Shown: positions 1 through 16,908 of the stretch, piece after piece
How the letters are laid out: each line of letters opens with the position of its first letter
Position numbering within the stretch: the stretch's first letter is position 1
Source: a virus
Strand: one strand, 5' to 3'
DNA: 31,775 bases
Virus record (IMG/VR): IMGVR_UViG_3300013102_000055
Location: 1 to 31,775 of that record
Notes under the pieces: generated by a model
The model's database searches: none
Told to the model about the DNA's origin: nothing
What the model saw: the letters and a program-made list of their open reading frames with translations, nothing else
Program-made: the position numbers and the translations under genes

Positions 1-255
1 AGAAACTGTTCTTCGAACTGGCTATCCACTTGGGAATGTGAGGAAATAAAAATTATTACCGATGTTGAAGTAAAGGTGCTGGAGCTTAAGCGACCGGAAA
101 CGGTTGAGGAGATTCGGCAGAAGGTATCGACCACGCTGTTCAACCTCGGTTTCCAGCGACTGCTTGATCCGAATGAACTGCACCTTGAGGGCGCGGAGTA
201 CGTTCTGGAAAAGCTGCTAGGCTGGATTGACGGGGAGTGGTATGAAGTTGAGTAG
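1..255 (+). CDS. Hypothetical protein, 5' end outside the window
   Basis: The first forward frame is open from the window edge to a TAG at 253-255, giving 84 visible residues with no convincing start, so the gene begins upstream. The visible part is acidic and mostly helical-looking, with a segment rich in E, V and K (about residues 21-40) and the end LLGWIDGEWYEVE. No family is recognised. It is the last gene before an 87-base gap that holds a promoter, so the downstream HNH gene need not be cotranscribed with it. The function is unknown. The coding call rests on the open frame and codon use like that of the neighbours. Confidence 0.6.
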   Translation, partial: RNCSSNWLSTWECEEIKIITDVEVKVLELKRPETVEEIRQKVSTTLFNLGFQRLLDPNELHLEGAEYVLEKLLGWIDGEWYEVE

Positions 256-304
256 TAGGCCCATGCGGGAATATCTCAGCGAAATTTTTTGAGCGCTAGG
301 AAAT

Positions 305-333
305 TTGACAAGCGCCTGTCTCGCTGATAATCT
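305..333 (+). promoter_or_regulatory. Sigma70-type promoter upstream of the HNH gene
   Basis: A perfect -35 box TTGACA (305-310) is followed by 17 bases and the -10 box TAATCT (328-333). The predicted start of transcription is about 340, only a few bases before the ATG at 343, so the mRNA would be leaderless or nearly so. No Shine-Dalgarno-like sequence precedes that ATG, which agrees. The same architecture occurs at 5848-5876. Confidence 0.75.
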
Positions 334-342
334 TTAATCGAC

Positions 343-786
343 ATGAAGTGTAAGGTTAAGTCGTGTGAAACGACAAAGATTATGGCAAGAGGCTGGTGCA
401 GCGTACATTACAAACGCTGGTATCGGTACGGCGACCCAGAGCGCCCGAACAATAATGCGGTTGGCCTGTCCCCAGAGGATAAGCTGAAACATTTTGGCTG
501 GGTCGTCACCGATACCGGGTGCTGGGAGTGGCAAGGCTACTTCAGCACTGGTGGATACGGTCAACTAAAAATTAATAGCAGAGAAACCAATGCACATATT
601 GTGTCGTATTCTGTATGGGTGGGGCCAACAAACGGTCTTCATGTCTTGCACACATGCGACAACAGGAAGTGCATTAACCCAGAGCATTTATTTCTGGGTA
701 CCAACAAAGACAACGTAGATGATAGACAGGCCAAAGGCCGCACCCGCAACGGTGTAAGTGGAAAGATTGTAGGTGATGCCAAATGA
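343..786 (+). CDS. HNH homing endonuclease (free-standing)
   Basis: This 147-residue protein has two recognisable parts. The N-terminus holds a small cysteine/histidine cluster (C3, C8, C19, H22) followed by YRYGDPERP, a module often found before phage HNH domains. The C-terminal half is an HNH domain: H85 in NAHIVSY, then VLHTCDNRKCINPEHLFLGT with H103, C105, C110, N112 and H115. Such enzymes cut DNA at a specific site and spread their own gene. The gene has its own near-leaderless promoter (305-333) and looks more A+T-rich than its neighbours, as expected for a mobile gene. Its stop overlaps the helicase ATG (ATGA), and its 3' end supplies the helicase ribosome binding site, so it is not flanked by an obvious intron. 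The target is not known from sequence; the helicase P-loop 90 bp downstream is an attractive candidate. Confidence 0.85.
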   Translation: MKCKVKSCETTKIMARGWCSVHYKRWYRYGDPERPNNNAVGLSPEDKLKHFGWVVTDTGCWEWQGYFSTGGYGQLKINSRETNAHIVSYSVWVGPTNGLHVLHTCDNRKCINPEHLFLGTNKDNVDDRQAKGRTRNGVSGKIVGDAK

Positions 787-2138
787 TTACCCTGTTCGAC
801 TATCAGGAACTCGATGTCTCCCGCGCTATTGCGGAAGGTCACAAGTCCATCTTCCTAGCCTACGAACAGGCTCTTTAGCTCGGCAAGACCATCGCTGCTG
901 TTGAGTTCGCACGGCGGACGGGTGTTGAGACAATCGTGGTAATCGCGCCTCTCGGCACCCGTCGCTCGTGGGAAAAGACGGTGCGTGACATGATCCCCGA
1001 CGCACCGTTCTACTACTTGGAGAACACCAAGAAGGCACACCAGAACTACACGTTCACGCGGCTGGCCGACAAGGAACCCGGCTGGTACTTCATCGGCTGG
1101 GAAATGATGCGCTCCGGTGCGATCACCGGCAAGTACGCCGACATGGTTATTGCGGACGAGGTTCACCGCATCCAGAACTACGGCAAGTCGCTGACGAGCC
1201 AGACAATTCGCTGGATCGACAGCGAGTACAAGGTCGCACTGTCCGGTACACCGGCTGCTAACCGACCGGAGGGGCTGTTCTCCCCGATGAACTGGCTGTG
1301 GCCCGAGCGGTACAAGTCGTACCACAAGTGGATCGAGAAGTTCTGGCGCACGATCCGCGACGGTTCGATCATTAAGCTGGTGCGCGAGCTTACGCCGGGT
1401 GGCGTGACCGCAGACATGCCGTTCTTTGTGCGGCGACGGAAGGCCGATCACCGAGGCGACTTGCCCCCTGTGCTGCCGCCCATCGAAGTCATTTGCGAAA
1501 TGACTCCGAAGCAGCGTAAGATTTACCAGCAGTGGGACGACCTTGCGGGGGCGTGGCTGGGCGACAGCTTTGTTGCTACGTCTAACTCACTCGTGAACGA
1601 TCTACGCCTGCGACAGATCACGTTGGGTGTTCCCATCGTGAACGAGGATGGTGAGGTTACCTTCGCGGAGAACACCAAGTCCTCCAAGCTGGACGCATTA
1701 ATCTCACTGATTAAAGACGGTGGCGACGAAGAGACATGGTTCGTTCTCTGCCCGAGCAAGCCCTTCGTGGACATCGTAGTCTCTAGACTTAACAAGGCGG
1801 GTATCAAGTCTGCTGGCTTCACCGGCGAGACGAAGCAGGCTGAACGTGACCGCCTTGTGCTGGAGCTGGGGCAGAAGGAGCGCGTCATCGTGGCGACGAT
1901 CCCGACCGTGGCAGAAGGACTCGACGGACTCCAGCATGTGTGCAGCAACGGCGTGTGGCTTTCGAAGCACTCGAACGCTATGCTGAATTCACAGGCAGGG
2001 GAGCGACTGGACCGACCGGGACAGACCCAGCCGGTGCAGTGGTGGAACTTCATTTCACCCGACACGCGAGACGAGCGCAACGAGGAACGACTTGACGAGA
2101 TTGCTGACGATCTTGCCGAGCTGTACGACCGATACTGA
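783..2138 (+). CDS. SNF2-like superfamily 2 DNA helicase interrupted by an in-frame TAG
   Basis: The frame starts at ATG 783, overlapping the HNH stop, with AGGTG at 771-775 as ribosome binding site. It reads 31 residues ending LAYEQAL, meets TAG at 876-878, then continues LGKTIAAVEFARR to a TGA at 2136-2138 with no other stop. Downstream motifs are intact: DEVH (1155-1166, motif II), VALSGTPAANRP (motif III), and a C-terminal helicase domain ending ERLDRPGQTQPVQWW (motif VI, near 2001-2045). The domain order matches SNF2/DEAD-like phage helicases, ATP-driven DNA translocases probably used in replication or recombination. The stop lies inside Walker A, so termination would remove ATPase function; a restart at ATG 936 would give a 400-residue product without motif I. 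Intact motifs after the stop argue that a full-length product is made or that the mutation is recent. Skipping TAG-CTC restores EQALGKT. A sequencing error or natural amber mutant is the plain alternative. Confidence 0.8.
870..881 (+). other. Candidate recoding site: GCT CTT TAG CTC in the helicase P-loop
   Basis: The reading frame is GAA CAG GCT CTT TAG CTC GGC AAG ACC. The stop is flanked by two leucine codons, CTT and CTC, that one tRNA-Leu (anticodon GAG) can read. If the peptidyl-tRNA on CTT hops to CTC, six bases are skipped and the product reads EQALGKT, a good SF2 motif I. Deleting the same six bases from the DNA gives the same protein. Readthrough would instead give two extra residues in the P-loop. 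That the stop and alignment exist is observed; recoding is inference. Confidence 0.4.
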
Positions 2139-2153
2139 AAGGGAGGTAGCACA

Positions 2154-2327
2154 ATGAACATCGATAAAATGAACGAGCAGACCCTTCGCACAGAGCTGGA
2201 GGATGCTCTGGAGAAGCTGACTCTGGTACGTAAGCGTGCTATGGAGATTGGCCCGAGCGACCTCCCGTTCGCGCTCGATATCATCGCCATCGTGGACGAG
2301 GGCAGGGAGCAGGACTATCTTGACTGA
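2154..2327 (+). CDS. Small hypothetical protein (57 aa)
   Basis: The start is ATG 2154, chosen because GGGAGG sits at 2141-2146 with good spacing. The 57-residue product is acidic; residues about 8-30 (EQTLRTELEDALEKLTLVRK) look like an amphipathic helix, possibly a short coiled coil, and the end is REQDYLD. It is separated from the helicase by 15 bases and overlaps the next start (TTG 2320) by eight. No family is recognised. Its place in a chain of tightly overlapped short genes suggests co-translation with them. Confidence 0.7.
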   Translation: MNIDKMNEQTLRTELEDALEKLTLVRKRAMEIGPSDLPFALDIIAIVDEGREQDYLD

Positions 2328-2559
2328 CGCGTTCACGCCGACGACGGAGCAGGTGCGCGATGCCCTGCGCATCTATCGAGTGCGACCCGAAGAGTTCGAC
2401 CGCTGGCTATCCCAGGTGAAGGCCGAGGCGAAAGCGGAGCAGCGCGAAGCTGACGCGCAGATCGCGCTGGGCGAGAGCGAGCACCTGAGGGACGCGGCAA
2501 CCTGCCGTGACATTGCCGCCGCCATCCGGGCAGCATCCGAGACCGAGGGGAAGAAGTGA
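2320..2559 (+). CDS. Small hypothetical protein (79 aa), TTG start
   Basis: An upstream extension of this frame is possible, but it would run back across the 57-residue gene; TTG 2320 overlapping that gene's stop is the better start. The 79-residue product begins MTDAFTPTTEQVRDALRIYR. It has a long charged, alanine-rich helix (about residues 36-55, KAEAKAEQREADAQIALGES) and ends RAASETEGKK. The N-terminal TEQVRDALR segment could be a helix-turn-helix-like start, but nothing diagnostic is present. The stop overlaps the GTG of the next gene (GTGA). The function is unknown. Confidence 0.65.
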   Translation: MTDAFTPTTEQVRDALRIYRVRPEEFDRWLSQVKAEAKAEQREADAQIALGESEHLRDAATCRDIAAAIRAASETEGKK

Positions 2560-2675
2560 ACTACACGGAGGAAGACCTGCTGGCGTTCATCGACCGGCAC
2601 GACGAGCACGAGGACTACTACCGGCGCAAGCTTGCCGAGCTTCAGGCCGAGACCAAGGGGAGCGACCGTGCCTAG
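2556..2675 (+). CDS. Very small hypothetical protein (39 aa), GTG start
   Basis: GTG 2556 overlaps the preceding TGA as GTGA and has GAGGGGAAG just upstream (2545-2553). The 39-residue product starts MNYTEEDLLAFIDRHDEHED and continues as a charged, probably all-helical segment rich in R, K and E. The gene is too short for any domain call. Support comes from the coupled overlap at its 5' end, the purine-rich ribosome binding site and the 8-base overlap with the next gene. Confidence 0.55.
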   Translation: MNYTEEDLLAFIDRHDEHEDYYRRKLAELQAETKGSDRA

Positions 2676-2859
2676 CGAATCGGTTCTGGCCGAGGGGCTG
2701 ATGCCGAGCGGCCGCGGGCGACTCATGTTCATTCGGAAGGGCGCGCTTCAAGCGCGGTTCCACGGTGAGCTTTTCGAGCGCTCCGGGGAAACCCTGCGCG
2801 ACAAGACCGCCGTGTTTCGACGAGTGACGGAAACAACCGAGGAGATCACTCATGACTGA
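2668..2859 (+). CDS. Small hypothetical protein (63 aa), GTG start
   Basis: The start is GTG 2668, preceded by AAGGGG at 2655-2660. The product begins MPSESVLAEGLMPSGRGRLM, is basic in its middle (FIRKGALQARFHGELFERSG) and ends VTETTEEITHD. The C-terminal ETTEE codons contain GAGGAG, which serves as the ribosome binding site for the next gene at 2852. The sequence encoding ETTE recurs twice in the next gene. No family is recognised. Confidence 0.6.
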   Translation: MPSESVLAEGLMPSGRGRLMFIRKGALQARFHGELFERSGETLRDKTAVFRRVTETTEEITHD

Positions 2860-3358
2860 ATCATTCGACCGTGCCGCCATCAAGGCGCTGATTGGTCAAG
2901 CCCGCAACCCATTGCGCCACGGTGACGAATCAGATCACTGTTCGGTGTGTTTCGGCTCGTGCGGCGCATGGCCCGGTGACCGTGTGGGCGATGAGGAAGA
3001 ACTGATTGCCGAGCTTGCCGACACCGCGCTTGCCCTGCTCACCGCCTTGGATGAGGCAGAGCGCCGGATCGCGGCGGTGGTTGCTGATGGAGAAGCCATT
3101 CGCGCCGCCTACCTCTCGTTCTGGGGCGCGCACAGTTCATCGGATATTGCCCGTGTCGGTAGGGAGCCGGGAATGCCTGACACTCCCGCACTCGACCGCG
3201 AACGCGCCGCTCTCCACCCCGCAACCGAGACAACGGAGGAACCGCGCTGTATCGAGTGTGCCGGTGAACTCCAGCAAGTGTCACTGACTGGGTATACCTG
3301 TCGCGTCTGCGGACTGATGGATGCCGCCCCCGTAGCCGAGACAACCGAGAGCAACTAA
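2852..3358 (+). CDS. Hypothetical protein with C-terminal zinc ribbon (168 aa)
   Basis: ATG 2852 overlaps the previous stop by eight bases. The N-terminal part holds HCSVCFGSCGAW (about residues 29-40), a possible metal site. A helical alanine- and glutamate-rich middle follows (residues 47-85). Near residue 125 the sequence ETTEEPRCIECAGE begins a zinc-ribbon-like module with CxxC at 132-135 and CRVC about 20 residues later, ending AETTESN. The internal ETTEE looks like the gene end seen at 2830-2844, so the protein may be a fusion of a small protein with a separate zinc-ribbon protein. The function is unknown; nucleic-acid or protein binding through zinc is possible. Confidence 0.7.
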   Translation: MTESFDRAAIKALIGQARNPLRHGDESDHCSVCFGSCGAWPGDRVGDEEELIAELADTALALLTALDEAERRIAAVVADGEAIRAAYLSFWGAHSSSDIARVGREPGMPDTPALDRERAALHPATETTEEPRCIECAGELQQVSLTGYTCRVCGLMDAAPVAETTESN

Positions 3359-3450
3359 TGACAACGTTTTTTAGGGACCACGAGGCAGCAATTAAAAAGC
3401 TGGCTGACGAGGAAGAGGAGGTAAGCAATGACACTGAAGTTCATGGCTAA
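3358..3450 (+). CDS. Very small hypothetical protein (30 aa)
   Basis: ATG 3358 overlaps the preceding stop (TAATG) and the frame ends at 3450, inside the start of the PRPP synthetase-like gene. The 30-residue product is MTTFFRDHEA followed by a helix with four glutamates in a row and a polar tail. Its 3' half contains GAGGAGG, the ribosome binding site of the next gene, so it may act mainly as a leader that couples translation. It could also be chance; support is only the coupled start and position. Confidence 0.4.
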   Translation: MTTFFRDHEAAIKKLADEEEEVSNDTEVHG

Positions 3451-4297
3451 GACGTTCGAAGGCTGGACCGTGACGAGTCCACTGGAGGCGTTCACGTTCC
3501 CCGCTGGGGAGGCACACATCAAGGGTGCCGAGGGTGAGCAGAGGTTCGCATATCAGATCGCTGATCTTCGTGGGGCTGACTCTCACGACTTGTTCCTACT
3601 GGCAATGTGGGTAGAAGCTTGCAAGGATCGCGGCGAGAAGACTGTCATCATCCTGCCATACCTCCCAGCAGCACGCGCTGACCGTGGAGTTCCATTCGGG
3701 GCGGCTGTCTACGCTGACTTCCTTAACGCACTGGGTGTGAACCAAATCATCACGCTTGACCCGCACTCTGAGGTTATGCCGAGGATGCTGGGGGCTACTG
3801 GGCGTACCGAACTGACCGTGTTCCCATTCGAGCGCATCATCAAGCGGGAGCTTGGCAACAGGGGCGACTACTACGATCACCCCTATGTCGGTGTCATTGC
3901 ACCCGACAAGGGAGCAGTGGATCGGGCCACTCGCGCGGCAAAAAAGCTGCACGTCCCGGTGTTCAAGGCTGAGAAGACACGAGACTTCGAGACTGGTCAA
4001 CTGAACGGCTTCACTTGCGAGGAACTTCCCGCCGTGGGTAAGCTGCTTCTCGTGGACGACATATGCGACGGTGGAGGTACGTTCATCGGACTGGCTGAGG
4101 CAACGGGTCTTCCCAAGGAACGGCTCGACTTGTGGGTGACGCATGGCATCTTCTCTAAAGGTATTAAGTCATTGTGCGAAAGGTTCGACAGCATCTACAC
4201 GACCGACTCATACCCCTCGATTGCCACTGAGGTATTCCCAGATCGAATTAAAGTTATCCCCGTGCTTCCCTACTTGATTGGAGAAATTAATGTATGA
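3428..4297 (+). CDS. prs: Ribose-phosphate pyrophosphokinase-like protein (PRPP synthetase)
   Basis: The 289-residue protein has the PRPP synthetase layout: FPAGEAHIK near residue 24, PYLPAARADR at 77-86 (the PYARQDR-like element), TLDPHS at 109-114, VIAPDKGAVDRA at 157-168, a K180-x-x-K183-x-R185 catalytic loop and the PRPP-binding loop LLLVDDICDGGGTF at 206-219. It would make PRPP from ribose 5-phosphate and ATP in the cytoplasm. The start ATG 3428 follows GAGGAGGTAAGC. Its stop overlaps the start of a nicotinamide phosphoribosyltransferase that consumes PRPP, so the two form a translationally coupled NAD+ salvage unit. It is a little shorter than cellular Prs (about 310-320), as phage versions often are. 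Confidence 0.9.
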   Translation: MTLKFMAKTFEGWTVTSPLEAFTFPAGEAHIKGAEGEQRFAYQIADLRGADSHDLFLLAMWVEACKDRGEKTVIILPYLPAARADRGVPFGAAVYADFLNALGVNQIITLDPHSEVMPRMLGATGRTELTVFPFERIIKRELGNRGDYYDHPYVGVIAPDKGAVDRATRAAKKLHVPVFKAEKTRDFETGQLNGFTCEELPAVGKLLLVDDICDGGGTFIGLAEATGLPKERLDLWVTHGIFSKGIKSLCERFDSIYTTDSYPSIATEVFPDRIKVIPVLPYLIGEINV

Positions 4298-5834
4298 CAA
4301 ATTTGCGCCCATCGCGCCACTCATGGACACCGACGCTTACAAGCTCGACCACCGCCGCCAGTACCCTGTCGGCACAACGGGGGTGCTGTCCAACTACACC
4401 AACCGGGGCAGCCGGGTAGCTCGCATCGATCACGTCGTTCACTTCGGACTTCAGGCGTTCCTCGCATCGTGGGCAATGGACGCATGGGTTCCGTTCTTCG
4501 AGGCCGACGAGGACGAAGTAGCCGAACTGTACGAGGAGTTCGTCACGTCGGTTCTCGGGCCGAACGACGTTGGCTCCGACCACATCCGCGCCCTGCACAG
4601 GCTGGGCTACCTCCCCCTGCGGTTCTGTGGTCTGCCGGAAGGTACACTGGTCCCACTCCGTGTGCCGAGCTTCACGGTAGAGAACACGCTGCCTGAGTTC
4701 TATTGGCTCGTGAACTACATCGAGACTGTGATGAGCGCGAGCATCTGGCAGGCCAGTACGTCTGCTACCACTGCGTATTATTTCCGTAAGCTCATCAACG
4801 AGTGGGCGCTGAAGACCACCGGATCAATCGAGGGAACGGAGTGGCAGGGACATGACTTCTCTTTCCGTGGCATGGCTGGTCGAGAGGCTGCCGCCGCATC
4901 GGGTGCTGGACACCTTCTCTCTTTCACTGGTTCAGACAACCTCAATGTCGCCCGGTTCGTTGAAGAGAATTACGATGGAGACAACGGACTCATTCTCGGC
5001 TCTGTTCCTGCCACCGAGCACTCCGTGATGTGCGCTGGCGGTTCCGACGAGGGCAACGAGCAGGCCACCTACGAGCGACTGCTGAGCCTGTACCCGGCCG
5101 GGATTGTCTCGGTAGTCTCTGATACTTGGGACTTGTGGAACGTCCTCACGGTCATCCTGCCGAACCTCAAGGATCAGATCATGGGACGTGATGGCAAGCT
5201 GGTTGTTCGGCCCGACTCCGGCGACCCCGTAGACATCCTGACCGGCACATTCGGTGACCCCGAGGATGGTGTGCATAACGGCACTCGTTACGCTGCCGCA
5301 CGGGAACTGTACGAGAAGACAAAGCAACCCCTTCGACCGGAACAGAAGGGTGTCATCGAACTGCTGTGGGACACCTTCGGCGGCACGATTAACGAGCAGG
5401 GTTACAAGGTTCTGGACCCGCACATCGGAGCTATCTACGGTGACTCGATTACCTACGAGCGCGCCGAGGCTATTTTTAAGCGGCTTGAGGCCAAGGGCTT
5501 TGCGTCCACGAACATCGTGCTTGGTGTGGGTAGCTACACCTATCAGTACGTCACCCGTGACACGTTCGCCAGCGCTGTCAAGGCTACGTGGGTGGAGATT
5601 GATGGTGTCGGACGAGACATTGCCAAAGACCCGATCACGGACAACGGTACGAAGAAGTCTGCCAAGGGCAGGCTTGCCGTTATCGGCGGCGCTGGCGGCC
5701 TTCAGTTGCTTGACGGGCATGACGGTAAGTTCGCGGAGGAGGCTGGGCTTAGCCTCCTTGAGCCTGTCTGGGAGAATGGTAAGTTCATCCGCTACCAGTC
5801 GTTCGATAACGTCCGTAAAGTTCTTGCAAATTAG
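4290..5834 (+). CDS. nadV: Nicotinamide phosphoribosyltransferase (NAMPT)
   Basis: This enzyme joins nicotinamide to PRPP to form NMN, the first step of NAD+ salvage. Diagnostic motifs are present: DTDAYKLDHRRQYP near residue 13, FTGSDN at 212-217, SVPATEHS with the catalytic histidine H244, SVVSDTWDLWN (D278) and VVRPDSGDP (R307, D309). The length of 514 residues is near the family norm of about 490. ATG 4290 is preferred over TTG 4278 because GGAGA at 4280-4284 is well placed for it. The first eight bases overlap the PRPP synthetase gene. No NMN adenylyltransferase is visible in the window, so the host or another phage gene would have to finish NAD+. A role against NAD+-depleting defences is plausible but not shown by sequence. 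Confidence 0.95.
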   Translation: MYDKFAPIAPLMDTDAYKLDHRRQYPVGTTGVLSNYTNRGSRVARIDHVVHFGLQAFLASWAMDAWVPFFEADEDEVAELYEEFVTSVLGPNDVGSDHIRALHRLGYLPLRFCGLPEGTLVPLRVPSFTVENTLPEFYWLVNYIETVMSASIWQASTSATTAYYFRKLINEWALKTTGSIEGTEWQGHDFSFRGMAGREAAAASGAGHLLSFTGSDNLNVARFVEENYDGDNGLILGSVPATEHSVMCAGGSDEGNEQATYERLLSLYPAGIVSVVSDTWDLWNVLTVILPNLKDQIMGRDGKLVVRPDSGDPVDILTGTFGDPEDGVHNGTRYAAARELYEKTKQPLRPEQKGVIELLWDTFGGTINEQGYKVLDPHIGAIYGDSITYERAEAIFKRLEAKGFASTNIVLGVGSYTYQYVTRDTFASAVKATWVEIDGVGRDIAKDPITDNGTKKSAKGRLAVIGGAGGLQLLDGHDGKFAEEAGLSLLEPVWENGKFIRYQSFDNVRKVLAN

Positions 5835-5847
5835 TTTGCGAAATAGC

Positions 5848-5876
5848 TTGACAAACGGTGCGTGAGGCACTAGGTT
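5848..5876 (+). promoter_or_regulatory. Sigma70-type promoter for the second early gene block
   Basis: TTGACA (5848-5853) is followed by 17 bases and TAGGTT (5871-5876), placing the start of transcription near 5883. A purine-rich ribosome binding site, AGAGGAG (5891-5897), and TTG 5905 follow. The -35 box and spacer match the promoter at 305-333. It lies in the only clear gap between the NAD+ genes and the following run of small genes. Confidence 0.75.
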
Positions 5877-5904
5877 AGTACCAAGAGGAAAGAGGAGCAA
5901 GACT

Positions 5905-6144
5905 TTGAGTGTTGTAAAAGACGCGATGGATGCGTGGGGGCGTTCGTTTCTGCGGGAACGCGACAACGAGGTAGCTGATGACGCAGACATCAGTTTCAAG
6001 GACGACATCGAATACAGCGGCTACTGTGAAACCTGCTACTACGAGGAGTACGTTGTCAGGGTGTCGGATGGCAAGGTCACCGAAACTTACTATGGCAGTA
6101 TGACAGAACTGTTGGATGCAATGCAGCGAGGGGTTTTCTACTAA
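5905..6144 (+). CDS. Hypothetical protein (79 aa), TTG start
   Basis: TTG 5905 has AGAGGAG seven bases upstream and is the first start after the 5848-5876 promoter. The acidic 79-residue product contains CETCYY near residue 41, a lone CxxC, and ends ELLDAMQRGVFY. There are no transmembrane or signal segments. The stop TAA overlaps the next ATG (TAATG). As the first gene after an early promoter it is a candidate host-takeover or anti-defence protein, but that is position only; no family is recognised. Confidence 0.75.
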   Translation: MSVVKDAMDAWGRSFLRERDNEVADDADISFKDDIEYSGYCETCYYEEYVVRVSDGKVTETYYGSMTELLDAMQRGVFY

Positions 6145-6476
6145 TGGGGTACTACATTAAAGATGTTGCGAACAACCCAGAACACTTCGGGCTGGAGAGT
6201 ATCGGCAGCATCGAACTGCGTAATGCAGCTTACGAGTTCGATATCCTCGCTGTGCTGTACAGCCCTGAGCGTAAGAACTTCTACACCGTAGAAGATTCCG
6301 GTTGCTCCTGCCCCGTTCCATTTGAGGGGCACACCACATTCGAATCGCTGGGCCGAGCGCTTACCGCACACGAGGCGGTGGCTTATGTTCAGCGGCGGGT
6401 TGCGGAAGCTAGCGAGTCGAGCTACGGTTACCCTGACGACCCGAGCAACTTGGTTGCTGCAATTATGAGGAAGTAA
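6144..6476 (+). CDS. Conserved phage protein of the SCSCP(x)PFE type (110 aa)
   Basis: The 110-residue product contains YSPERKNFYTVEDSGCSCP followed by VPFEG (about residues 39-61). This signature recurs in small unknown proteins of many actinobacteriophages (the DUF7574-like family, from memory). The cysteine pair in CSC and the aromatic residues around it suggest a compact fold, but no activity is known. The C-terminal half, ALTAHEAVAYVQRRVAEASE, is helical. It begins at ATG 6144, coupled to the previous stop, and is followed after one base by the next ATG. Confidence 0.8.
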   Translation: MGYYIKDVANNPEHFGLESIGSIELRNAAYEFDILAVLYSPERKNFYTVEDSGCSCPVPFEGHTTFESLGRALTAHEAVAYVQRRVAEASESSYGYPDDPSNLVAAIMRK

Positions 6477-6477
6477 G

Positions 6478-6630
6478 ATGGCTACCAAGGCACAGCTTGT
6501 GCGGCGGCTGTTCGAGAATGACTGCACGGATGATACCGAAATCGTGGGGACTATCTTGCATAGTATTGTCGAAGACGGTACGCTAGACTTTACAGCAGAA
6601 GAGTTGCTGGATATCATTGCAGACAGTTAA
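6478..6630 (+). CDS. Small hypothetical protein (50 aa)
   Basis: ATG 6478 follows the previous stop by one base and has GAGGAAG at 6467-6473. The 50-residue product starts MATKAQLVRRLFENDCTDDT and ends TAEELLDIIADS, acidic and probably all-helical, like a mini adaptor or inhibitor in shape. No family is recognised. Intact coupling and a good ribosome binding site support it as a real gene. Confidence 0.65.
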   Translation: MATKAQLVRRLFENDCTDDTEIVGTILHSIVEDGTLDFTAEELLDIIADS

Positions 6631-6651
6631 CGATGGAGAGGGGAAATAATT

Positions 6652-7032
6652 ATGACTGACAAAATTGAGCAGGCACAGCGAGCGGCTGCCGCAGCACGAA
6701 AGATCAAGGAGCTTCAGGCACAGATCGCTGAGCTGGAGGAGGCGGTCGAGAACCTGAAGGCCAAGGAGGTCGAATACTTCCACGAGGAGCCTGGTGACTA
6801 CATCGTTGGCGACAACGAGAACGGGTTCCTCAAGGTCATGGTCTACCAGTCCAAGCGGTTCGATGAGAACTACGGCAAGAAGCTCCACCCCGAGCTGTGG
6901 GCAGAATACGCTGAGGCTAAGCTGGTTCTCACGTCGGCTCGCGCCAAGGACAAGCTGAGCGAGGATGAGTACGAGGACTTCCAGAAGCCGAGCGCCAAGC
7001 TTTCGGTCAAGGTGGAGGTCATCAATGACTGA
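6652..7032 (+). CDS. Coiled-coil hypothetical protein (126 aa)
   Basis: ATG 6652 follows GGAGAGGGG (6634-6642). Residues 5-45 form a clear coiled coil (AQRAAAAARKIKELQAQIAE and on), followed by a globular part with GDYIVGDNENGFLKVMVYQS and KRFDENYGKKLHPELWAEYA, ending SAKLSVKVEVIND. Similar short proteins with an N-terminal coiled coil occur near recombination genes in actinobacteriophages and some are compared to nuclease inhibitors of the Gam type, but there is no decisive motif here. The gene overlaps the next start by eight bases. Confidence 0.75.
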   Translation: MTDKIEQAQRAAAAARKIKELQAQIAELEEAVENLKAKEVEYFHEEPGDYIVGDNENGFLKVMVYQSKRFDENYGKKLHPELWAEYAEAKLVLTSARAKDKLSEDEYEDFQKPSAKLSVKVEVIND

Positions 7033-7225
7033 CGAGAAGGCCACCGTCTTTGTGCGGATCGCAAGCGGTGCCCTTCTCGAACGGCGCAACGTGATCGACC
7101 TCGGGGCAGGCGTAATTGAGGGGTCGTTCTTCGTGGAGCAGGAGACACCGCAAGGCAATACGATTGAGGTCTGGGCCGCTGGAGAATGGCGCAGCTTCGC
7201 TGCAACGGAGAGGGTTGACCGATAG
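7025..7225 (+). CDS. Small hypothetical protein (66 aa)
   Basis: ATG 7025 overlaps the previous gene by eight bases (ATGACTGA); an upstream extension of the frame would lie inside the coiled-coil gene and is rejected. The product begins MTDEKATVFVRIASGALLER and looks like a small beta-barrel, alternating hydrophobic strands with turns, ending FAATERVDR. The C-terminal codons contain GGAGAGGG (7207-7214), the only ribosome binding site for the next gene. The function is unknown. Confidence 0.7.
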   Translation: MTDEKATVFVRIASGALLERRNVIDLGAGVIEGSFFVEQETPQGNTIEVWAAGEWRSFAATERVDR

Positions 7226-7452
7226 ACAAGCCAAACCTACCAGACCCCGGCAAGGGCCGGTTCTGGCGCATCACAGAAGATTGGGCCGACGACTTTGTTC
7301 TCAGTTTGGTTGAGCCGAATGGAACTGTCGCAGATTCTCGTGTACTGTATCGCAGCAGTGAGGTTACTGCTGGTGACTTTGAGGACGCGGCAGAACATAT
7401 TCTTCAGACAGTTATTGTCAGCGAGTCGTTCGTTGGTACCTACAAATTCTAA
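7222..7452 (+). CDS. Small phage protein with an apparent ATA start (76 aa)
   Basis: The frame is open from a TGA at 7216-7218 to TAA 7450-7452. Its only codon in a start position is ATA 7222, which overlaps the preceding TAG as ATAG and lies seven bases after GGAGAGGG. The next possible start, a TTG at codon 29, would remove the conserved-looking opening DKPNLPDPGKGRFWRITEDW. The rest reads as a compact protein ending ESFVGTYKF. ATA as an initiator is very rare (ATT in infC is the familiar near-cognate case). A mutation of ATG to ATA with residual expression, or a -1 frameshift from the previous gene, are alternatives; no good slippery run exists after 7218. Confidence 0.6.
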   Translation: MDKPNLPDPGKGRFWRITEDWADDFVLSLVEPNGTVADSRVLYRSSEVTAGDFEDAAEHILQTVIVSESFVGTYKF

Positions 7453-7470
7453 CAAGGAAACAAAAGTAAA

Positions 7471-7680
7471 TTGACTAAGCATTACACAGCAGAAGACGTG
7501 CAGAACATCCTCACCGGATTCGCAGAGGAGTTCATCGTGGACATCCCCGCGCTGCACAACGACAAGGGTTACTTCATCGAACACAACCAGCTTGCGGGGA
7601 GTCTGATCCTTGCGGATCAGGAGTGGTTCGCCACCGTCGCGGGCTATGTGAACGAGAAGCTCGCCGTTGGCGACGAGTAA
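7471..7680 (+). CDS. Small hypothetical protein (69 aa), TTG start
   Basis: TTG 7471 is preceded by AAGGA (7454-7458), somewhat far. The 69-residue acidic product begins MTKHYTAEDVQNILTGFAEE and ends VAGYVNEKLAVGDE. No motif is recognised. It overlaps the Cas4-like nuclease start (TTG 7667) by 14 bases, so it is probably cotranslated with the recombination genes. Confidence 0.65.
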   Translation: MTKHYTAEDVQNILTGFAEEFIVDIPALHNDKGYFIEHNQLAGSLILADQEWFATVAGYVNEKLAVGDE

Positions 7681-8320
7681 ACTCAAGGCCAAGGTACTCG
7701 CAGAAATCACCAAGGGCACAGAGCGCGACAAGCAGCGCCGTGCTGGTCCTTCCAACATCGCCAACCCCTGTCCTAAGTGCGTGGGCAAGTCGCTGGCTGG
7801 TGTGGACGATGACCGAGATTTCAGCCTGTACCCGTTCATCGGTACGGCGGTACACGCCTACCTCGAACACAACACCTTCCCAGATGCACAGCACGAACTT
7901 AAACTTTATGTCGGGGATGTCCCCGGCTACGGTCCCATCAAGGGTACGACCGACCTTTACATCATCGTGGAGATTGATGGCCAGCAGGTTGCCGTTGTGC
8001 TGGACTGGAAGATCGTCGGCATCAAGAAGATTAAAAGTTACATCGTCAATGGACCGCCTGAGCAGTACCGCTATCAGGCAAACATCTACGGACGAGGGCT
8101 TCAACTTGCGGGTGAGCCAGTGGATCGGATTGCGATTTGCTTTATCCCCCGTGACTCTGGTAACGTGAACGACATCTTCATTCATGAGGAAGAGTACCAG
8201 CCGGAAATGGCAGAAGCGGCACTTGAACGGGCTGGCCGCATCTACGAAATTGTTCAGGCTGAGGGCTGGGAGAACCTGCCCGAAGATGATGACTGCTACC
8301 AGTGCAACGGCATCTGGTAA
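7667..8320 (+). CDS. Cas4/RecB-like PD-(D/E)XK exonuclease
   Basis: The 217-residue protein carries a RecB-type nuclease core: H63 in IGTAVHAYLE, D96 in GTTDLYI, D113-W-K115 in VVLDWKIVG and Q137 in YRYQANIYG. Two cysteine pairs, C35/C38 (CPKC) near the N-terminus and C210/C213 (CYQC) at the end, could bind an iron-sulphur cluster as in Cas4 and AddB, although Cas4 itself splits its cysteines 1+3. It probably resects DNA ends to give single strands for the Sak4-like annealing ATPase and the ssDNA-binding protein encoded next. The TTG 7667 start gives MATSKLKAKVL and overlaps the preceding gene. There are no nearby CRISPR genes, so an adaptation role is unlikely. Confidence 0.85.
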   Translation: MATSKLKAKVLAEITKGTERDKQRRAGPSNIANPCPKCVGKSLAGVDDDRDFSLYPFIGTAVHAYLEHNTFPDAQHELKLYVGDVPGYGPIKGTTDLYIIVEIDGQQVAVVLDWKIVGIKKIKSYIVNGPPEQYRYQANIYGRGLQLAGEPVDRIAICFIPRDSGNVNDIFIHEEEYQPEMAEAALERAGRIYEIVQAEGWENLPEDDDCYQCNGIW

Positions 8321-8338
8321 CAAAGAGGAGAAGAGAAT

Positions 8339-8488
8339 ATGCCCACTTACCGAGTACGTTACGACTACACCGTCAGTGAAACGGGTTACATTGATGTCGA
8401 GGCTGAGGATGAGAGTAGCGCTGAGGATGCAGCCTTCGCTAACGTCTGGGAAGACGACATTAATATTTACGACGTGGAGGAAATTTAA
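8339..8488 (+). CDS. Small acidic hypothetical protein (49 aa)
   Basis: ATG 8339 lies four bases after AGAGGAGAAGAG, a strong ribosome binding site. The 49-residue product starts MPTYRVRYDYTVSETGYIDV and continues as a very acidic region ending INIYDVEEI. The alternating strand-helix pattern resembles a small beta-alpha-beta unit found in phage unknowns. It sits between the nuclease and the Sak4-like ATPase and may be an accessory factor, but no family is recognised. Confidence 0.7.
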   Translation: MPTYRVRYDYTVSETGYIDVEAEDESSAEDAAFANVWEDDINIYDVEEI

Positions 8489-8491
8489 TAC

Positions 8492-9313
8492 TTGGCTGAC
8501 ACCAAAGAGGCAGTGAAGCTGCCGAAGTTCGCAATTAAAAAGGCAGCACAGATGGGCAGCCCGAAGAGCATCCTGCTCTACGGCCCGCCGAAGAAGGGCA
8601 AGACCGTCTTCGCATCGAGCATCAGCGCCGTTCCCGGCTACGAGCGTGTGCTGCTGATCGACGTGGAGGGCGGTTCGTCATCCGTCAATGCGTGGTACCC
8701 CAACATCGACGTGATCGAAACCCCGACCGCACGAGAGTTCAGCAAGGTTGTTGAGGCGCTTCTCAACAACGAGATTGTTGAAGCAGAGAGTGGCCTGCCG
8801 TATCAGGTTGTCATCATCGACACTCTGGATAAGGCACAGGAACGACAGCTTGAGCTTTACGCTGCTGATCCTAAGTCCGAGAAGGACGGTTACTTTAAGT
8901 GGGCCGCGCTGAAGACGTGGACGAGCAAGATGGCTGACTACCTACACATGGCTCCGTTCCTCACGATCTTCGTGGCTCATCAGGACGACGAGAAGGACGA
9001 TAAGACTGGCGTGGTGACCACCACCGTCATGCTTTCCGGTAAGTCCCGCTTTACTTTCCCGTCAACTCCTGATATCATTGGACACTTCACGGTTATCACC
9101 GTAGAAGAGGACGGCAAGAAGGGTCCACGACGTGCAGTGGACTTTACTGTATCTGACAAGCTGATTAGCGGACAGCGTTATGCAGATAAACTTAATGGAA
9201 AGTTCCTCGATCCCACGATGGAGAAAATCTTCCAGAAGATTGAGCCTGAGCGCTTTGCTAAGGCCGAGACTAGCACGAACACATCAGACACATCAACCAA
9301 GAAGGACAAATAA
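8492..9313 (+). CDS. Sak4-like RecA-fold ATPase (single-strand annealing)
   Basis: The 273-residue protein opens with a RecA-like ATPase: Walker A GPPKKGKT at 31-38, LLIDVEGG at 54-61 and Walker B VVIID at 106-110. Then come TIFVAHQDDEKDD (sensor-like) and SGKSRFTFPSTPDIIGHFTV. This order is that of phage Sak4/AAA_24 proteins that help recombination mediated by ssDNA-binding protein. The tail (about 258-273) is a polar linker rich in S, T and K. TTG 8492 is the start; the gene before ends at 8488. It lies between a nuclease and an ssDNA-binding protein, the usual recombination module. Confidence 0.88.
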   Translation: MADTKEAVKLPKFAIKKAAQMGSPKSILLYGPPKKGKTVFASSISAVPGYERVLLIDVEGGSSSVNAWYPNIDVIETPTAREFSKVVEALLNNEIVEAESGLPYQVVIIDTLDKAQERQLELYAADPKSEKDGYFKWAALKTWTSKMADYLHMAPFLTIFVAHQDDEKDDKTGVVTTTVMLSGKSRFTFPSTPDIIGHFTVITVEEDGKKGPRRAVDFTVSDKLISGQRYADKLNGKFLDPTMEKIFQKIEPERFAKAETSTNTSDTSTKKDK

Positions 9314-9316
9314 CAT

Positions 9317-9805
9317 ATGGGCATCAAGCTTAACCTCACCAACGATGAGATTAAGAGCGCACAGGGAGGATTCCCGGTGCTTCCTGCCGGTGTCTACGGC
9401 GCTACCATTTACTCCAGCGAACTGAAGCAGTCCAAGGCTGGAAACCCCATGTACGTGATCGACTTCAAGATCACCGAGGGACAGGCCGGTATCGGTCGCA
9501 AGCAGCGTAGCTGGTTTGTGCTGGCTCCGAACGCTCTGTTCGGCGTGATCGGCCTGAACAAGGCTGTCGGCTTCCCGTACCCCACCAAGGACACCCCTGC
9601 TGGTGAGTTCGAGTTCAACGACGCTGACGACTATGTGGGCCAGCAGGTCAACATCGTCCTTGAGGTCGAGGATTACGAGTCCGTGGACGACGACGACAAC
9701 GATGTTACCAAGCAGCGCAACGTTGTCAAGCGCGTCAACGCCTACGACACCGACAAGGTGACCGGCGCTGAGGTCGAGGATGCCAAGAGCGGCCTCTTCC
9801 TCTAA
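9317..9805 (+). CDS. ssDNA-binding protein, DUF669-like
   Basis: This 162-residue protein shows the DUF669-type pattern of phage ssDNA-binding proteins: VLPAGVYGATIYSSELKQSK, then GNPMYVIDFKITEG, a strand KQRSWFVLAP, and DYVGQQVNIVLEVEDYE. An acidic stretch (SVDDDDNDV) is followed by TKQRNVVKRV. It would coat single strands during replication and partner the Sak4-like ATPase, three bases upstream. The C-terminus KSGLFL is hydrophobic rather than the acidic tip of bacterial SSB. ATG 9317 is the start. It is the last gene before the structured region at 9816-9885. Confidence 0.8.
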   Translation: MGIKLNLTNDEIKSAQGGFPVLPAGVYGATIYSSELKQSKAGNPMYVIDFKITEGQAGIGRKQRSWFVLAPNALFGVIGLNKAVGFPYPTKDTPAGEFEFNDADDYVGQQVNIVLEVEDYESVDDDDNDVTKQRNVVKRVNAYDTDKVTGAEVEDAKSGLFL

Positions 9806-9815
9806 GCAATAACTC

Positions 9816-9885
9816 GGGGTGGTCTTAAGTTGTGGACGAGACTTAAGGGCAACTGCTAGACTCAGTGGATACTAGCAGCCACCCC
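9816..9885 (+). ncRNA. Three-way-junction-like dyad region, possible structured RNA
   Basis: Three nested inverted repeats fit a junction: outer GGGGTGG (9816-9822) with CCACCCC (9879-9885); arm 1 TCTTAAGT (9823-9830) with ACTTAAGG (9841-9848), loop TGTGGACGAG; arm 2 CTGCTAG (9853-9859) with CTAGCAG (9872-9878), loop of 12. The stems total 22 pairs, one of them G-T, in 70 bases. It follows the ssDNA-binding gene stop by 10 bases and precedes a tRNA-like element. It may be an RNA, a replication origin structure or a promoter with operator dyads (CTTAAG occurs twice). There is no U-run, so a simple terminator is unlikely. Confidence 0.5.
9833..9862 (+). promoter_or_regulatory. Weak candidate promoter inside the dyad region
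   Basis: TGGACG (9833-9838) and TAGACT (9857-9862) are 18 bases apart, and TGC directly before TAGACT makes an extended -10. Transcription would start near 9869 and cover the tRNA-like element and the primase gene. The -35 match is only partial. This reading competes with the RNA-structure reading of the same bases. Confidence 0.35.
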
Positions 9886-9890
9886 CTCCC

Positions 9891-9964
9891 GACCGGTTGC
9901 GGCTAACGGAATGCCGCTCTGCAAGAAACAGCAGAGGATGCAGGTTCGAATCCTGCCCCGGTTG
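9891..9964 (+). tRNA. tRNA-like element without a normal anticodon loop
   Basis: The 3' part is a canonical T arm, GCAGG-TTCGAAT-CCTGC (9940-9956). The D stem CGGC/GCCG (9900-9903, 9913-9916) encloses a loop with GG. The anticodon stem TCTGC/GCAGA (9918-9922, 9931-9935) pairs fully. The acceptor GACCGGT/CCCGGTT pairs at six of seven positions, one as G-T. The anticodon loop is eight bases, AAGAAACA, with no U33; GAA sits centrally, so a Phe tRNA ancestry is possible. No CCA is encoded. It may be a decayed tRNA, a non-decoding mimic or an old attachment-site remnant. Perfect stems argue against long neglect. Confidence 0.5.
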
Positions 9965-9998
9965 CGTAGTAACATCAGCATTAGGAGGGAACATTGGC

Positions 9999-12224
9999 TT
10001 GAAAACCACAGATTTTCTGTCTTCGTTGTTCAGAGACAGCGAGGGTTACGTCTTCATTTCTAGCTATGACGACGATGGGGAACTGACACAGCATAAGCCG
10101 TTCCAGTACCCCGCACAACTTAAACAAATTAGTGCATACGCGGCTGTTCGTGAAGACGAGCAGCTTTATTTTTCTCCGTTCCTGTACTCCGTGCCCCGGC
10201 GCAGGAAGGGTTCTGTCTCTGTCACGCCTGTTCTCTACGCCGACACCGACACCTTCCCGATTGACCAGTACCTCGTACCCCCGTCGATCAACGTTCGCAC
10301 GTCGGAGAATAAGCACCACAGTTATTGGCTCCTCGATGACGTGTACACCCCCGAACAGGTGGCGAATGCGTCTCGGGCAATCGCGCTCACGCACGCGAGC
10401 AAGGTTGACGGCAAGCAGGCTGGCACCGACACAAGCGGCTGGGACTTGGCGCAGCTTCTGCGTCTGCCCAACAGCGTCAACCTCAAGTACGGCGAAGCCT
10501 ACCCTGTGCATGTCGCCGAGGGCAGCGGTGAGATTTATTCTCTTGCTGAAATCATGGACGTGTACGGCAACATCAAGACCAAGGAACACACCCTTGAACT
10601 GAGCGAGGACATCCCTGACAACCTGCCGGAAGCGAAGGACGTTCTTCGTCGGGTGGTTGCCAGCCCTCACCTGAGCGAACTGTACTCCACAACACCGCGA
10701 GGCACACAGGACTGGTCGGACACCCTCTACCGCTTCGTGTGCGAGCTTTTCCGCGCCGGGTTCACCGCTGAGGAAGCACTGGTGGTGGCGTGGAACGCAT
10801 CGAGCAACAAGTACAAGCGTGACGGTCGCCCGATGTCGGACCTTTGGCAGTACGATATCCGCAAGGCACAGGCTGACCCGAGCAACCGCCCGATGACGCA
10901 CACCGAGCGGGTGGCTCTGGACGACACTCCACGCCCCAAGGACGAGGGACTGTCCAAGGAGCTTGAGCTAGCGCTGCTGACCGAGGACGAACGCAAGATG
11001 CTGACGGAGACATTCGTGGACGAGTACGTGGAGTGGGCAGTCACCAAGACTGACGCTCCCGCACCCTACCACGTAGCCGGTGCGCTGACCGCGATGAGCC
11101 TTGTGCTGGGGGAGTGGGCCGTGGCCTACCCACAGTTCGGTGATCTGCGGCTGGGGCTGTTCTTCGTCATCATGGGTGAGACTACGGATACCCGTAAGAC
11201 TACCTCGCGTAACATGATGAAGCGGTTGGTGCGTGGTTGTCAGAGTGGTGACTACGACTACATCCTCACGTCGGACACCACGCCGGAAAGCCTGCTCGAC
11301 AACCTAGCTGAGCGACCGGACCAGTCATCACTGTATGACCGGGACGAGGCGCAGCAGTTGGTGGCCGACATCAAGGGTGGCAAGGGGTACATGAAGGGCT
11401 TCTTCGAGGCGCTGAACGAATTGTATGACGGCTGGGCACATGGTCGTTTGCGACAGGGCAGAGCAACGAAGGACACTCCGGTTAACTTCGTGCAGTATCT
11501 CATGGGTATTCGGTCGCAGCTTCAGGAAAACCTTGAGCTTAGCGACTTCGCTTCTGGTTGGGGACCGCGTAACATCTTCGTTCGTGGTGAGGCTCCTCCC
11601 CGCACAAGGGAGAACAGCCGACTTCAGCAGGGCGTACCCGGCCAGACCGGAATTCAGGATCAGGAACTGTTCAATCTCACGTCGAAGCTCTCCCGTGTGC
11701 GTGACCACTGGGCACGTAGGCCGGGGGCGAGCCGTGAAGAACCGTTCCAGATGTTGTTCGAGAACGACGCATGGATCAGGCAGACGGACTTGGAGTGGGA
11801 CTTGAAGGAATACTTCAAGGACCACCCGCGTTACTCGGTACTGAAGCCTTGCTTTGAGCGCCTGTCGATCAACGTTCTGAAGGTGGCTGTCCTGTTCGCA
11901 ATGATGGAAAAGCGCGAGAAGGTGTCGCTGGTGGACGTTCTGAACGCTCGCTACTACGCAGCACAGTGGGTCGAAGACCTTGTTATTGTGGTGGAGGGCG
12001 TGAACGAAACGATGTACCGGCGCGACATCGATGCACTGGAGAAGTTCATCATCGAGAACGAGGGCTTTGTCACCTACGCCAAAGCGCTCCGCTGGGCAAC
12101 GACGAACGGCAAGCGTAAGAAGGACTTCATTGAACTTGTTGAGGTATTGGTGGAGACAGATGTAATTCAGATCGTGGAAGACGGCAGAAACAAGAAGAGT
12201 CTGGAGCTTATCGAGCATGGATAA
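9999..12224 (+). CDS. Primase-polymerase/helicase (AEP domain plus P-loop helicase)
   Basis: The frame can be extended to TTG 9897, but that part translates the tRNA-like element (RGCRFESCPG is a familiar tRNA artefact); TTG 9999, eight bases after AGGAGGGA, is the better start, giving 741 residues. The N-terminal part has primase-polymerase motifs: LYADTD at 79-84 (catalytic D82, D84), HHSYW near 106 and TDTSGWDLAQLLRLPNSVN at 143-161. A helical linker follows. From about residue 358 an ATPase domain begins, with a P-loop-like GETTDTRKT at 394-402, where the usual glycine before K is R, then LYDRDEA as probable Walker B. It would prime and unwind DNA at the fork. An 8-base overlap couples it to the HTH gene. 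Confidence 0.85.
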   Translation: MKTTDFLSSLFRDSEGYVFISSYDDDGELTQHKPFQYPAQLKQISAYAAVREDEQLYFSPFLYSVPRRRKGSVSVTPVLYADTDTFPIDQYLVPPSINVRTSENKHHSYWLLDDVYTPEQVANASRAIALTHASKVDGKQAGTDTSGWDLAQLLRLPNSVNLKYGEAYPVHVAEGSGEIYSLAEIMDVYGNIKTKEHTLELSEDIPDNLPEAKDVLRRVVASPHLSELYSTTPRGTQDWSDTLYRFVCELFRAGFTAEEALVVAWNASSNKYKRDGRPMSDLWQYDIRKAQADPSNRPMTHTERVALDDTPRPKDEGLSKELELALLTEDERKMLTETFVDEYVEWAVTKTDAPAPYHVAGALTAMSLVLGEWAVAYPQFGDLRLGLFFVIMGETTDTRKTTSRNMMKRLVRGCQSGDYDYILTSDTTPESLLDNLAERPDQSSLYDRDEAQQLVADIKGGKGYMKGFFEALNELYDGWAHGRLRQGRATKDTPVNFVQYLMGIRSQLQENLELSDFASGWGPRNIFVRGEAPPRTRENSRLQQGVPGQTGIQDQELFNLTSKLSRVRDHWARRPGASREEPFQMLFENDAWIRQTDLEWDLKEYFKDHPRYSVLKPCFERLSINVLKVAVLFAMMEKREKVSLVDVLNARYYAAQWVEDLVIVVEGVNETMYRRDIDALEKFIIENEGFVTYAKALRWATTNGKRKKDFIELVEVLVETDVIQIVEDGRNKKSLELIEHG

Positions 12225-12603
12225 GAATGAGCTTGCCTCATTCTTGGCTTGGCTCAACGGTATCTATCAGAGGAGAGATACCACCGGACTCAACTCAGCA
12301 GTACGGGGAGAGCGGTGCCGTGAGATTAATCGTCACGGCATCCTCTCCCTGCAAGCTATCGGGGCCATCACTGGCTCCTCGGTCTGGCAGGTAGAGCAGG
12401 CCATCGTGGGGATGAAGCGCCCGAAGGCGCGAGGGAAACTCAACCCACAGCATCTGTCGATGCTGGCCTATGTGCTAAGCACCGGCAAAATTAAAACGGA
12501 GTGGCTGGGTATCTTCTTGGAGGAGGGGACCAGCCTGAGTACGGTAGCTGACTTGACGGGGATCGCTGAGTCAACACTACATAGACATCGGAGAAAGCTT
12601 TGA
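12217..12603 (+). CDS. Helix-turn-helix DNA-binding protein (128 aa)
   Basis: Two helix-turn-helix-like segments are visible: residues about 40-64 (HGILSLQAIGAITGSSVWQV and on) and 103-127 (GTSLSTVADLTGIAESTLHR and on). The lysine- and arginine-rich linker KRPKARGKL lies between them. The second ends RHRRKL, a basic tail fitting DNA contact. The gene is embedded between the primase-helicase (8-base overlap) and DNA polymerase (stop overlaps TTG 12600). It may act in replication initiation, as an origin binder or loader, or as a regulator of this operon. The structured region 9816-9885 is a natural candidate target, which is inference. Confidence 0.75.
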   Translation: MDKNELASFLAWLNGIYQRRDTTGLNSAVRGERCREINRHGILSLQAIGAITGSSVWQVEQAIVGMKRPKARGKLNPQHLSMLAYVLSTGKIKTEWLGIFLEEGTSLSTVADLTGIAESTLHRHRRKL

Positions 12604-14675: not shown

Positions 14676-14686
14676 TTACTACAGTT

Positions 14687-14974
14687 ATGTGGAAACACGG
14701 CACTACAACAGGTTACACAAAGCATAAATGTCGATGCGCCGACTGCAAGCGCGCACAGAGCGAGTCGCGGAAGCGGCTCCGTGCGTCGGCTGGCGCAAAC
14801 CTATCAGAACATGGTACACTGTATGGTTACCAAGGGGCAGGTTGTCGTTGCGATCCTTGCACAGAGGCAGCGAGTCAGTATTCTCGCATCCGCAATGGTG
14901 GCTCTGCCCCCAAGCTGGCCACACCGCGCTACGGGGTGGGCCGCTCTCTGAACAACCGTAGCAGACAGGATTAG
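14687..14974 (+). CDS. Small protein with two tandem cysteine motifs (95 aa)
   Basis: The protein contains a duplicated motif: HGTTTGYTKHKCRCADCKRA and HGTLYGYQGAGCRCDPCTEA, each of the form HGTxxGYxxxxCRCxxC. The first is followed by a basic stretch SESRKRLR, the second by SQYSRIRN. Small proteins with this CRCxxC module are frequent in actinobacteriophages and probably bind zinc and nucleic acid. ATG 14687 is chosen; the frame is open back to GTG 14648 inside polA, and TTG 14660 is another option, since no start has a strong ribosome binding site. It lies between polA and the resolvase. Confidence 0.7.
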   Translation: MWKHGTTTGYTKHKCRCADCKRAQSESRKRLRASAGANLSEHGTLYGYQGAGCRCDPCTEAASQYSRIRNGGSAPKLATPRYGVGRSLNNRSRQD

Positions 14975-14976
14975 GA

Positions 14977-15492
14977 ATGACCACCCCACAACGAAAACTC
15001 CCTGTGATCGTTGTCGCAGTCGATCCCGGTATAACTACCGGGATCGCGGTGTTTAAATTTAGCGACGACGATGCGGAATACCTTGAGCATCACCAGTGGG
15101 AAGACCCTGACACAGCGTGGCGTGTGATCCACAACCTCGTGCATTACTGGCAGGCTGGTTACGACACCATTCTGGTTGTCGAGCAGTTTGACAAGCGCCC
15201 CGGCATCATCAACCCGGACTTCACGCCTAAGTACATCGGGCGCGACATCGCTAACAACATCGATGACGTGGAGATTGTCTGGCAGATTCCCGGTGCGGCG
15301 ATGAACCTCGTGAAGCCTGTGAGTGCCAAGGGTAACAAGGGCGGCGACCATCTGAAACGCTTCGGCTGGTATCTCCGCAGTAACGTCCACGCGAATGATG
15401 CCGCCCGACACGCCATCGTGTACGCGGTTGACGTTCTCCACCACATGCCGACCATCCTCAGAGGGTGGCCCAAACCGAAAGATGACGATTAA
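14977..15492 (+). CDS. ruvC: RuvC-like Holliday junction resolvase
   Basis: The 171-residue protein has an RNase H-like fold: VVAVDPGITTGIAVF at 12-26 (D16), LVVEQF at 66-71 (E69), and NDAARHAIVYA at 140-150 with D141 and H145 completing the acidic centre. RuvC-type nucleases cut four-way junctions symmetrically; in phages this clears branched DNA made by recombination and replication. ATG 14977 lies two bases after the previous stop. The gene's TAA overlaps the ATG of the next gene. The identity is well supported by motif order, though some phage members have relaxed specificity. Confidence 0.85.
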   Translation: MTTPQRKLPVIVVAVDPGITTGIAVFKFSDDDAEYLEHHQWEDPDTAWRVIHNLVHYWQAGYDTILVVEQFDKRPGIINPDFTPKYIGRDIANNIDDVEIVWQIPGAAMNLVKPVSAKGNKGGDHLKRFGWYLRSNVHANDAARHAIVYAVDVLHHMPTILRGWPKPKDDD

Positions 15493-16772: not shown

Positions 16773-16778
16773 ATACAC

Positions 16779-16816
16779 AAAAGGCCCGAGTGGATTAATT
16801 TCCACTCGGGCCTTTT
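16779..16816. terminator. Bidirectional rho-independent terminator
   Basis: A 16-bp perfect stem, AAAAGGCCCGAGTGGA (16779-16794) with TCCACTCGGGCCTTTT (16801-16816), encloses the loop TTAATT. Its A-run and T-run give a U-tract in both directions. It separates the rightward replication operon, ending at 16772, from the leftward lysis and tail operon, ending at 16835. Confidence 0.95.
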
Positions 16817-16834
16817 CCAGATTAGGATCACCCC

Positions 16835-16894: not shown

Positions 16895-16908
16895 ATTACT
16901 CCTAAAAA

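Follow-up and report, generated by a model that had tools for sequence, protein, structure and literature searches.

A stop codon inside the Walker A motif of a phage SNF2-like helicase gene as a candidate site of short translational bypassing

A helicase gene in the IMG/VR virus record IMGVR_UViG_3300013102_000055 carries a stop codon inside its Walker A motif, which raises the question of whether, and how, the ribosome passes it. The window is the whole stretch of DNA that was analysed (31,775 nucleotides), and the features of the helicase locus described below lie on its plus strand. Frame reading, Pfam and relatives identify an SNF2-like (SF2) helicase gene at 783-2138 with a single internal in-frame TAG: the frame reads MITLFDYQELDVSRAIAEGHKSIFLAYEQAL, the stop, then LGKT, and stays open until the TGA at 2136-2138. 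The product belongs to the SNF2-like SF2 helicases by its SNF2-related domain (Pfam SNF2-rel_dom, PF00176, E=1.5e-18) together with helicase C motifs, for which the PF00271 score is slightly under the gathering threshold. The codons around the stop are GCT (870-872), CTT (873-875), TAG (876-878), CTC (879-881) and GGC AAG ACC (882-890), the last three of which encode the G-K-T of Walker A. A sequence-only reading of this DNA had placed a TAG in the P-loop between the leucine codons CTT and CTC and had held the helicase motifs downstream to be intact; the exact coordinates confirm the former, and the downstream motifs are indeed intact.

A comparison with relatives reveals that the window has six extra bases, TAGCTC at 876-881, although this placement is ambiguous by a few bases (CTTTAG, TTAGCT or TAGCTC all fit). 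The motif is two residues shorter in phage Yappy (AWE--MSLGKT), in Jojan60 (SE--MGQGKT) and in the IMG/VR relatives L010, L091, L092 and L094 (AWE--MGLGKT), so the window locus differs by an insertion of six bases rather than by a point mutation. The search of relatives for an absence of these six bases, which had been suggested from the sequence, finds all relatives with a readable motif to be without them. An allele of the window gene itself lacking the six bases was not found among viral contigs, and no helicase relatives were found in genome contigs when queried from the window. A sibling phage from the same dataset as the second contig described below (L090, IMGVR 3300013100_000041) shares about 77% DNA identity with most of window positions 3400-17200, and its contig ends shortly before the helicase.

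Because the contig is metagenomic, the stop might be a sequencing or assembly error, as the earlier reading had allowed. A second contig, IMG/VR 3300013100_000039, matches window positions 1-17257 with zero differences over 17,257 bases and continues for 1,612 bases beyond the window's upstream end, where it enters an RNA ligase-like gene that is intact; this disfavours a random assembly error, with the proviso that the two assemblies may share reads. Analogous insertions also occur in isolate genomes, such as those of Fonticella tunisiensis DSM 24455 and Thermotalea metallivorans, and an error is accordingly weakened to an exceedingly improbable explanation.

We consider it quite likely, from comparison with related sequences, that the window TAG is bypassed by a ribosome hop. 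The ribosome would read 31 codons and stall with peptidyl-tRNA-Leu on the putative take-off codon CTT (873-875) while TAG occupies the A site; the tRNA-Leu would then release CTT and re-pair six bases on, at the putative landing codon CTC (879-881), and decoding would resume at GGC (882-890) to yield AYEQALGKT and a full-length helicase. Such a hop from CTT to CTC, already put forward in the sequence-only reading, would skip exactly the six bases and restore the spacing of every readable relative. A tRNA-Leu with the anticodon GAG could read both CTT and CTC, and the window landing codon both matches the take-off codon and directly precedes the resume codon. The hop itself and its efficiency are what we infer from these features; leucine stop-hops in the E. 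coli reporters of Weiss in 1987 were reportedly inefficient, which counts against a bypass in the window.

Several other ways past the stop were considered. Readthrough, by amber suppression or TAG reassignment, would keep the frame across a six-base insert and might be favoured by the C after the stop, generally a weak termination context, but its product (ALXLGKT) would retain two extra residues in the P-loop. No tRNA genes were found in the window, so that a suppressor tRNA is absent from it, and TAG is the ordinary terminator of other window genes, which dismisses a genome-wide sense reading of TAG. In light of the gap lengths of related insertions given below, several of which readthrough cannot repair, we regard this explanation as barely credible. 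A prfB-like +1 frameshift at CTT TAG C leads into a frame of about 22 codons that ends at TAA and does not encode helicase, and six bases are too few for an intron or intein.

Listing the Walker A motif in all related viral loci reveals that the insertion has counterparts. The SNF2 helicases of Firmicutes phages and prophages (LLMEMGTGKT) are a distant group, 24% identical to the window, in which many similar lesions occur, for example ATG[TAGCTG]GGG in L042, GGT[TAGC]ACC in L033, GGC[TGACAAGGC]ACA in L034, ATG[TAGCCATA]GGA in L057, GAG[TGAG]ATG in L069, GAA[TAGAG]ATG in L026 and GGT[TGAGC]AAG in L074. GTDB genomes were also searched with a pattern blind to stops, in which the flanks MEMG and TGKT were fixed and 2-24 bases were left free between them. 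The pattern occurs at 58 places, 26 of which are true helicase homologues by our reading, with inserts of 4, 5, 7, 8, 9 or 10 nt that begin with TAG, TGA or TAA in 26/26; the remaining 32 places are chance matches in unrelated genes, and 1 of these 32 is stop-first. Of the 20 matching genes in evenly drawn Firmicutes samples, about half carry an insertion (11, each of them stop-first, against 9 without), and the reversed-pattern control yielded none. As similar insertions, again stop-first and in Walker A, turn up repeatedly among related viral helicases, the window case goes beyond chance.

Some individual loci and named phages merit description. One genome (G005) carries two prophage copies, which differ by one base in gap length, with gaps of 9 nt (L200/L236) and 10 nt (L203/L230), which form a natural test pair for bypassing. 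Among the named phages nearest the Firmicutes group, THSA-485A carries an uninterrupted motif, and the annotation of FP_Epona shows a single CDS. The split annotation of Streptomyces phage JustBecause proved to be just a start overlap. In L084, the Walker A segment (FEMGCGK) lies inverted at about 70-116, upstream of an otherwise normal helicase, through either an inversion or an assembly join.

The insertions follow a common rule. Across 27 distinct insertions (the window included), whose carrier sequences are related so that the stop-first rule, the landing match and the hairpin are not fully independent evidence, the stop directly follows a sense codon in 27/27, and the triplet before the resume codon shares the middle base of the take-off codon in 27/27 (permutation p<5e-6), with at least two bases shared in 23/27. 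This limit of kinship is eased by a tree on which the presence of the insertion requires at least 8 changes and by the take-off position, which varies among carriers (E, M, G, L or the second G); the insertions have apparently evolved repeatedly at the same spot, as judged from the sequences. The landing triplets are GGN or NGY after Gly, GAG for Glu, CTG or ATA for Met, and CTC for Leu. The base after the stop is C in 17/27 insertions and T in 0/27, and a C after UGA or UAG generally makes for weak termination. The statement of the sequence-only reading that the stop lies immediately 3' of the take-off codon, as in T4 gene 60, thus extends to the 26 other distinct insertions.

The region next to the take-off codon was also inspected for RNA structure, with helices taken per sequence; a sequence-based alignment misplaced arms in several rows. 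In the Firmicutes carriers (n=18), a hairpin whose MEMG arm adjoins the take-off codon has a longest helix of 7.9 bp on average, compared with 5.5 bp in intact relatives (n=26; p=1.8e-5), and the combined shuffle p is 2e-9 for carriers versus 1.0 for intact genes. The 3' arm consists of the MEM codons and the 5' arm is typically ATTTCC (Ile-Ser); in L181, the arm GGAGAT is paired with a 5' arm ATCTCC. In the window, RNAfold predicts a first hairpin upstream of the take-off codon (833-855, 7-bp stem) and a 5-bp hairpin that abuts it (857-872, AGCCT-acgaac-AGGCT); a comparable abutting hairpin occurs at 15/436 codon positions of the window helicase gene, and the z-scores of the window-region fold against shuffles are not significant.

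Selection downstream of the stop bears on whether these genes are still translated. In related carriers, dN/dS downstream of the stop is 0.03-0.2, which indicates strong purifying selection. The close relatives L236, L230 and L240, with gaps of 9, 10 and 5 nt, have a downstream dN/dS of about 0.05, and a clade with 8-nt gaps has a median of 0.046 (36 pairs), compared with a median of 0.109 in intact control genes. As the gaps fall in all frames and dN/dS is low, neither readthrough, which cannot repair gaps of 4, 5, 7, 8 or 10 nt, nor single-base frameshifting explains the class. Additionally, carriers preserve the Walker A sequence both before and after the stop, and downstream initiation would lose the part before it. 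Bypassing is very probably the best explanation for the Firmicutes class, as far as sequence comparison can tell.

For the window itself, the main competing possibility is a natural null allele, in which a recently inserted stop disabled a helicase that one phage population can do without, and nothing is bypassed. The insertion is confined to one lineage of the clade to which the window belongs, broken accessory genes are common in phages, and the window relatives are all too distant for dN/dS, all of which suit this explanation. However, the remainder of the ORF is intact, and the stop-first layout with a matched landing codon follows that of the 26 other distinct insertions, whose genes are under purifying selection. 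The amber mutation offered earlier as the simple alternative is thereby weakened, by recurrence at the motif and by downstream selection in related carriers; for the window lineage we judge a null allele unlikely. The window bypass is nevertheless rated below that of the class, because of this single lineage and of relatives (L010, L091/L092) that have an HNH gene and an intact motif.

The window gene of this kind is a homing-type HNH endonuclease gene (343-786; Pfam HNH_3, 3.1e-7; PHROG endonuclease, 6.8e-30), the TGA of which overlaps the helicase ATG (ATGA), so that a homing endonuclease gene directly adjoins the putatively bypassed gene. In L010, L091 and L092, too, an HNH gene occupies this place directly upstream of the helicase, and Walker A is intact; HNH adjacency is therefore no predictor of the insertion in the window clade. 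Elsewhere in the window, PRPP synthetase-like and nicotinamide phosphoribosyltransferase genes are adjacent at 3428-5834 and form a phage NAD salvage pair.

In many carriers of the Firmicutes group, an N-terminal helicase piece is followed by HNH and then by MxISxSxGAALLMEMG[stop]TGKT, with the HNH just before the Walker A strand. After dereplication, HNH lies within the helicase gene in 9/23 carriers versus 1/23 intact genes (p=0.0098), and in L229 seemingly the HNH tail alone remains. In L022 an HNH gene likewise lies within the helicase gene, but Walker A is intact and the hairpin is missing; this locus may represent a cassette that precedes, or does without, the micro-insertion. L020 (IMGVR 2945303667) contains an apparent helicase intein at GK|T (C-terminal ...IVTHN|T), which marks Walker A as a homing target in this group. 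In T4, the topoisomerase gene was divided in two by mobA, an HNH endonuclease from which the 50-nt bypass insert may offer protection (PMC2988022, PMC5009743); the mobA-type bypass has been called a mobile DNA cassette (Bonocora 2011, as cited in PMC4592705). By analogy with the proposal for T4 mobA and gene 60, the insert may be a protection scar or a remnant of homing-endonuclease invasion.

Given this T4 precedent and the frequent HNH in the same gene, the insert might confer resistance and nothing else, spoiling the cleavage site while the helicase is given up or produced as separate pieces, with no hop. Pure resistance would need neither the stop-first layout nor a matched landing codon, no start codon yields GKT along with the preceding strand, and Walker A is kept on both sides of the stop with the downstream ORF constrained, which leaves this alternative very unlikely. 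With the bypass preferred, the window site would be a divergent member of a class of 4-10 nt bypass elements in the Walker A of phage SNF2-like helicases, probably gained independently of the other members.

To our knowledge, natural bypassing in bacteria and their viruses comprises essentially one proven case, T4 gene 60. By comparison with that case, the class features are hallmarks of bypassing of the gene-60 type: the stop sits immediately 3' of the take-off codon, the take-off and landing codons match, a stem-loop lies on the 5' side, and the host gene is split by an HNH homing endonuclease (PMC5009743, PMC2988022). The matched codons encode Gly in T4, as they do for most of the Firmicutes members. 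The stem-loop beside the take-off codon is required in T4 (PMC5009743). Unlike T4, the gap here is 4-10 nt instead of 50 nt, the site is the Walker A of a helicase and recurs in many lineages, the window uses Leu, the landing match in the class is sometimes two or one of three bases, and there is no known nascent-peptide signal.

Synthetic stop hops in E. coli (Weiss et al. 1987), as they are described in PMC5009743, share matched codons around a stop, with six bases skipped and nine bases decoded as one amino acid, but are artificial constructs; for natural in-frame stop hopping, the same 2016 review states that 'no occurences are known' (PMC5009743). The byp elements of Magnusiomyces capitatus mitochondria are likewise many short inserts skipped by the ribosome with an often imperfect match (PMC5009743), whereas they are organellar, hold an unused codon and not a stop in the A site, and occur in most genes, apparently independently of context. 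Possible bypasses in the terminase of Streptomyces phage Hau3 and the tmp of mycobacteriophage Corndog share the actinophage context, and Corndog tmp also an HNH gene inserted nearby (PMC4351075); the former is UUA-dependent, the latter may instead use ACG initiation, and neither is a Walker A stop-hop. No prior report of a Walker A stop-hop class was found in the literature outside subscription papers, which makes the novelty provisional.

Taken more broadly, it is reasonably likely that minimal stop-hop elements of 4-10 nt, assisted by a hairpin, settle again and again in the Walker A of phage SNF2-like helicases, being gained and lost repeatedly alongside HNH homing endonucleases. The class supplies natural short elements by the dozen, many of them from cultured bacteria, that vary in gap length and take-off tRNA, and the matched intact relatives make it a natural experiment on the minimum requirements for ribosome hopping. 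It links bypassing once more to homing endonucleases, and automatic annotation may label functional phage helicases as broken genes. If the bypass is real, natural bypassing would be a widespread phage decoding mode, with Gly, Glu, Met or Leu take-off tRNAs, and not a curiosity of T4.
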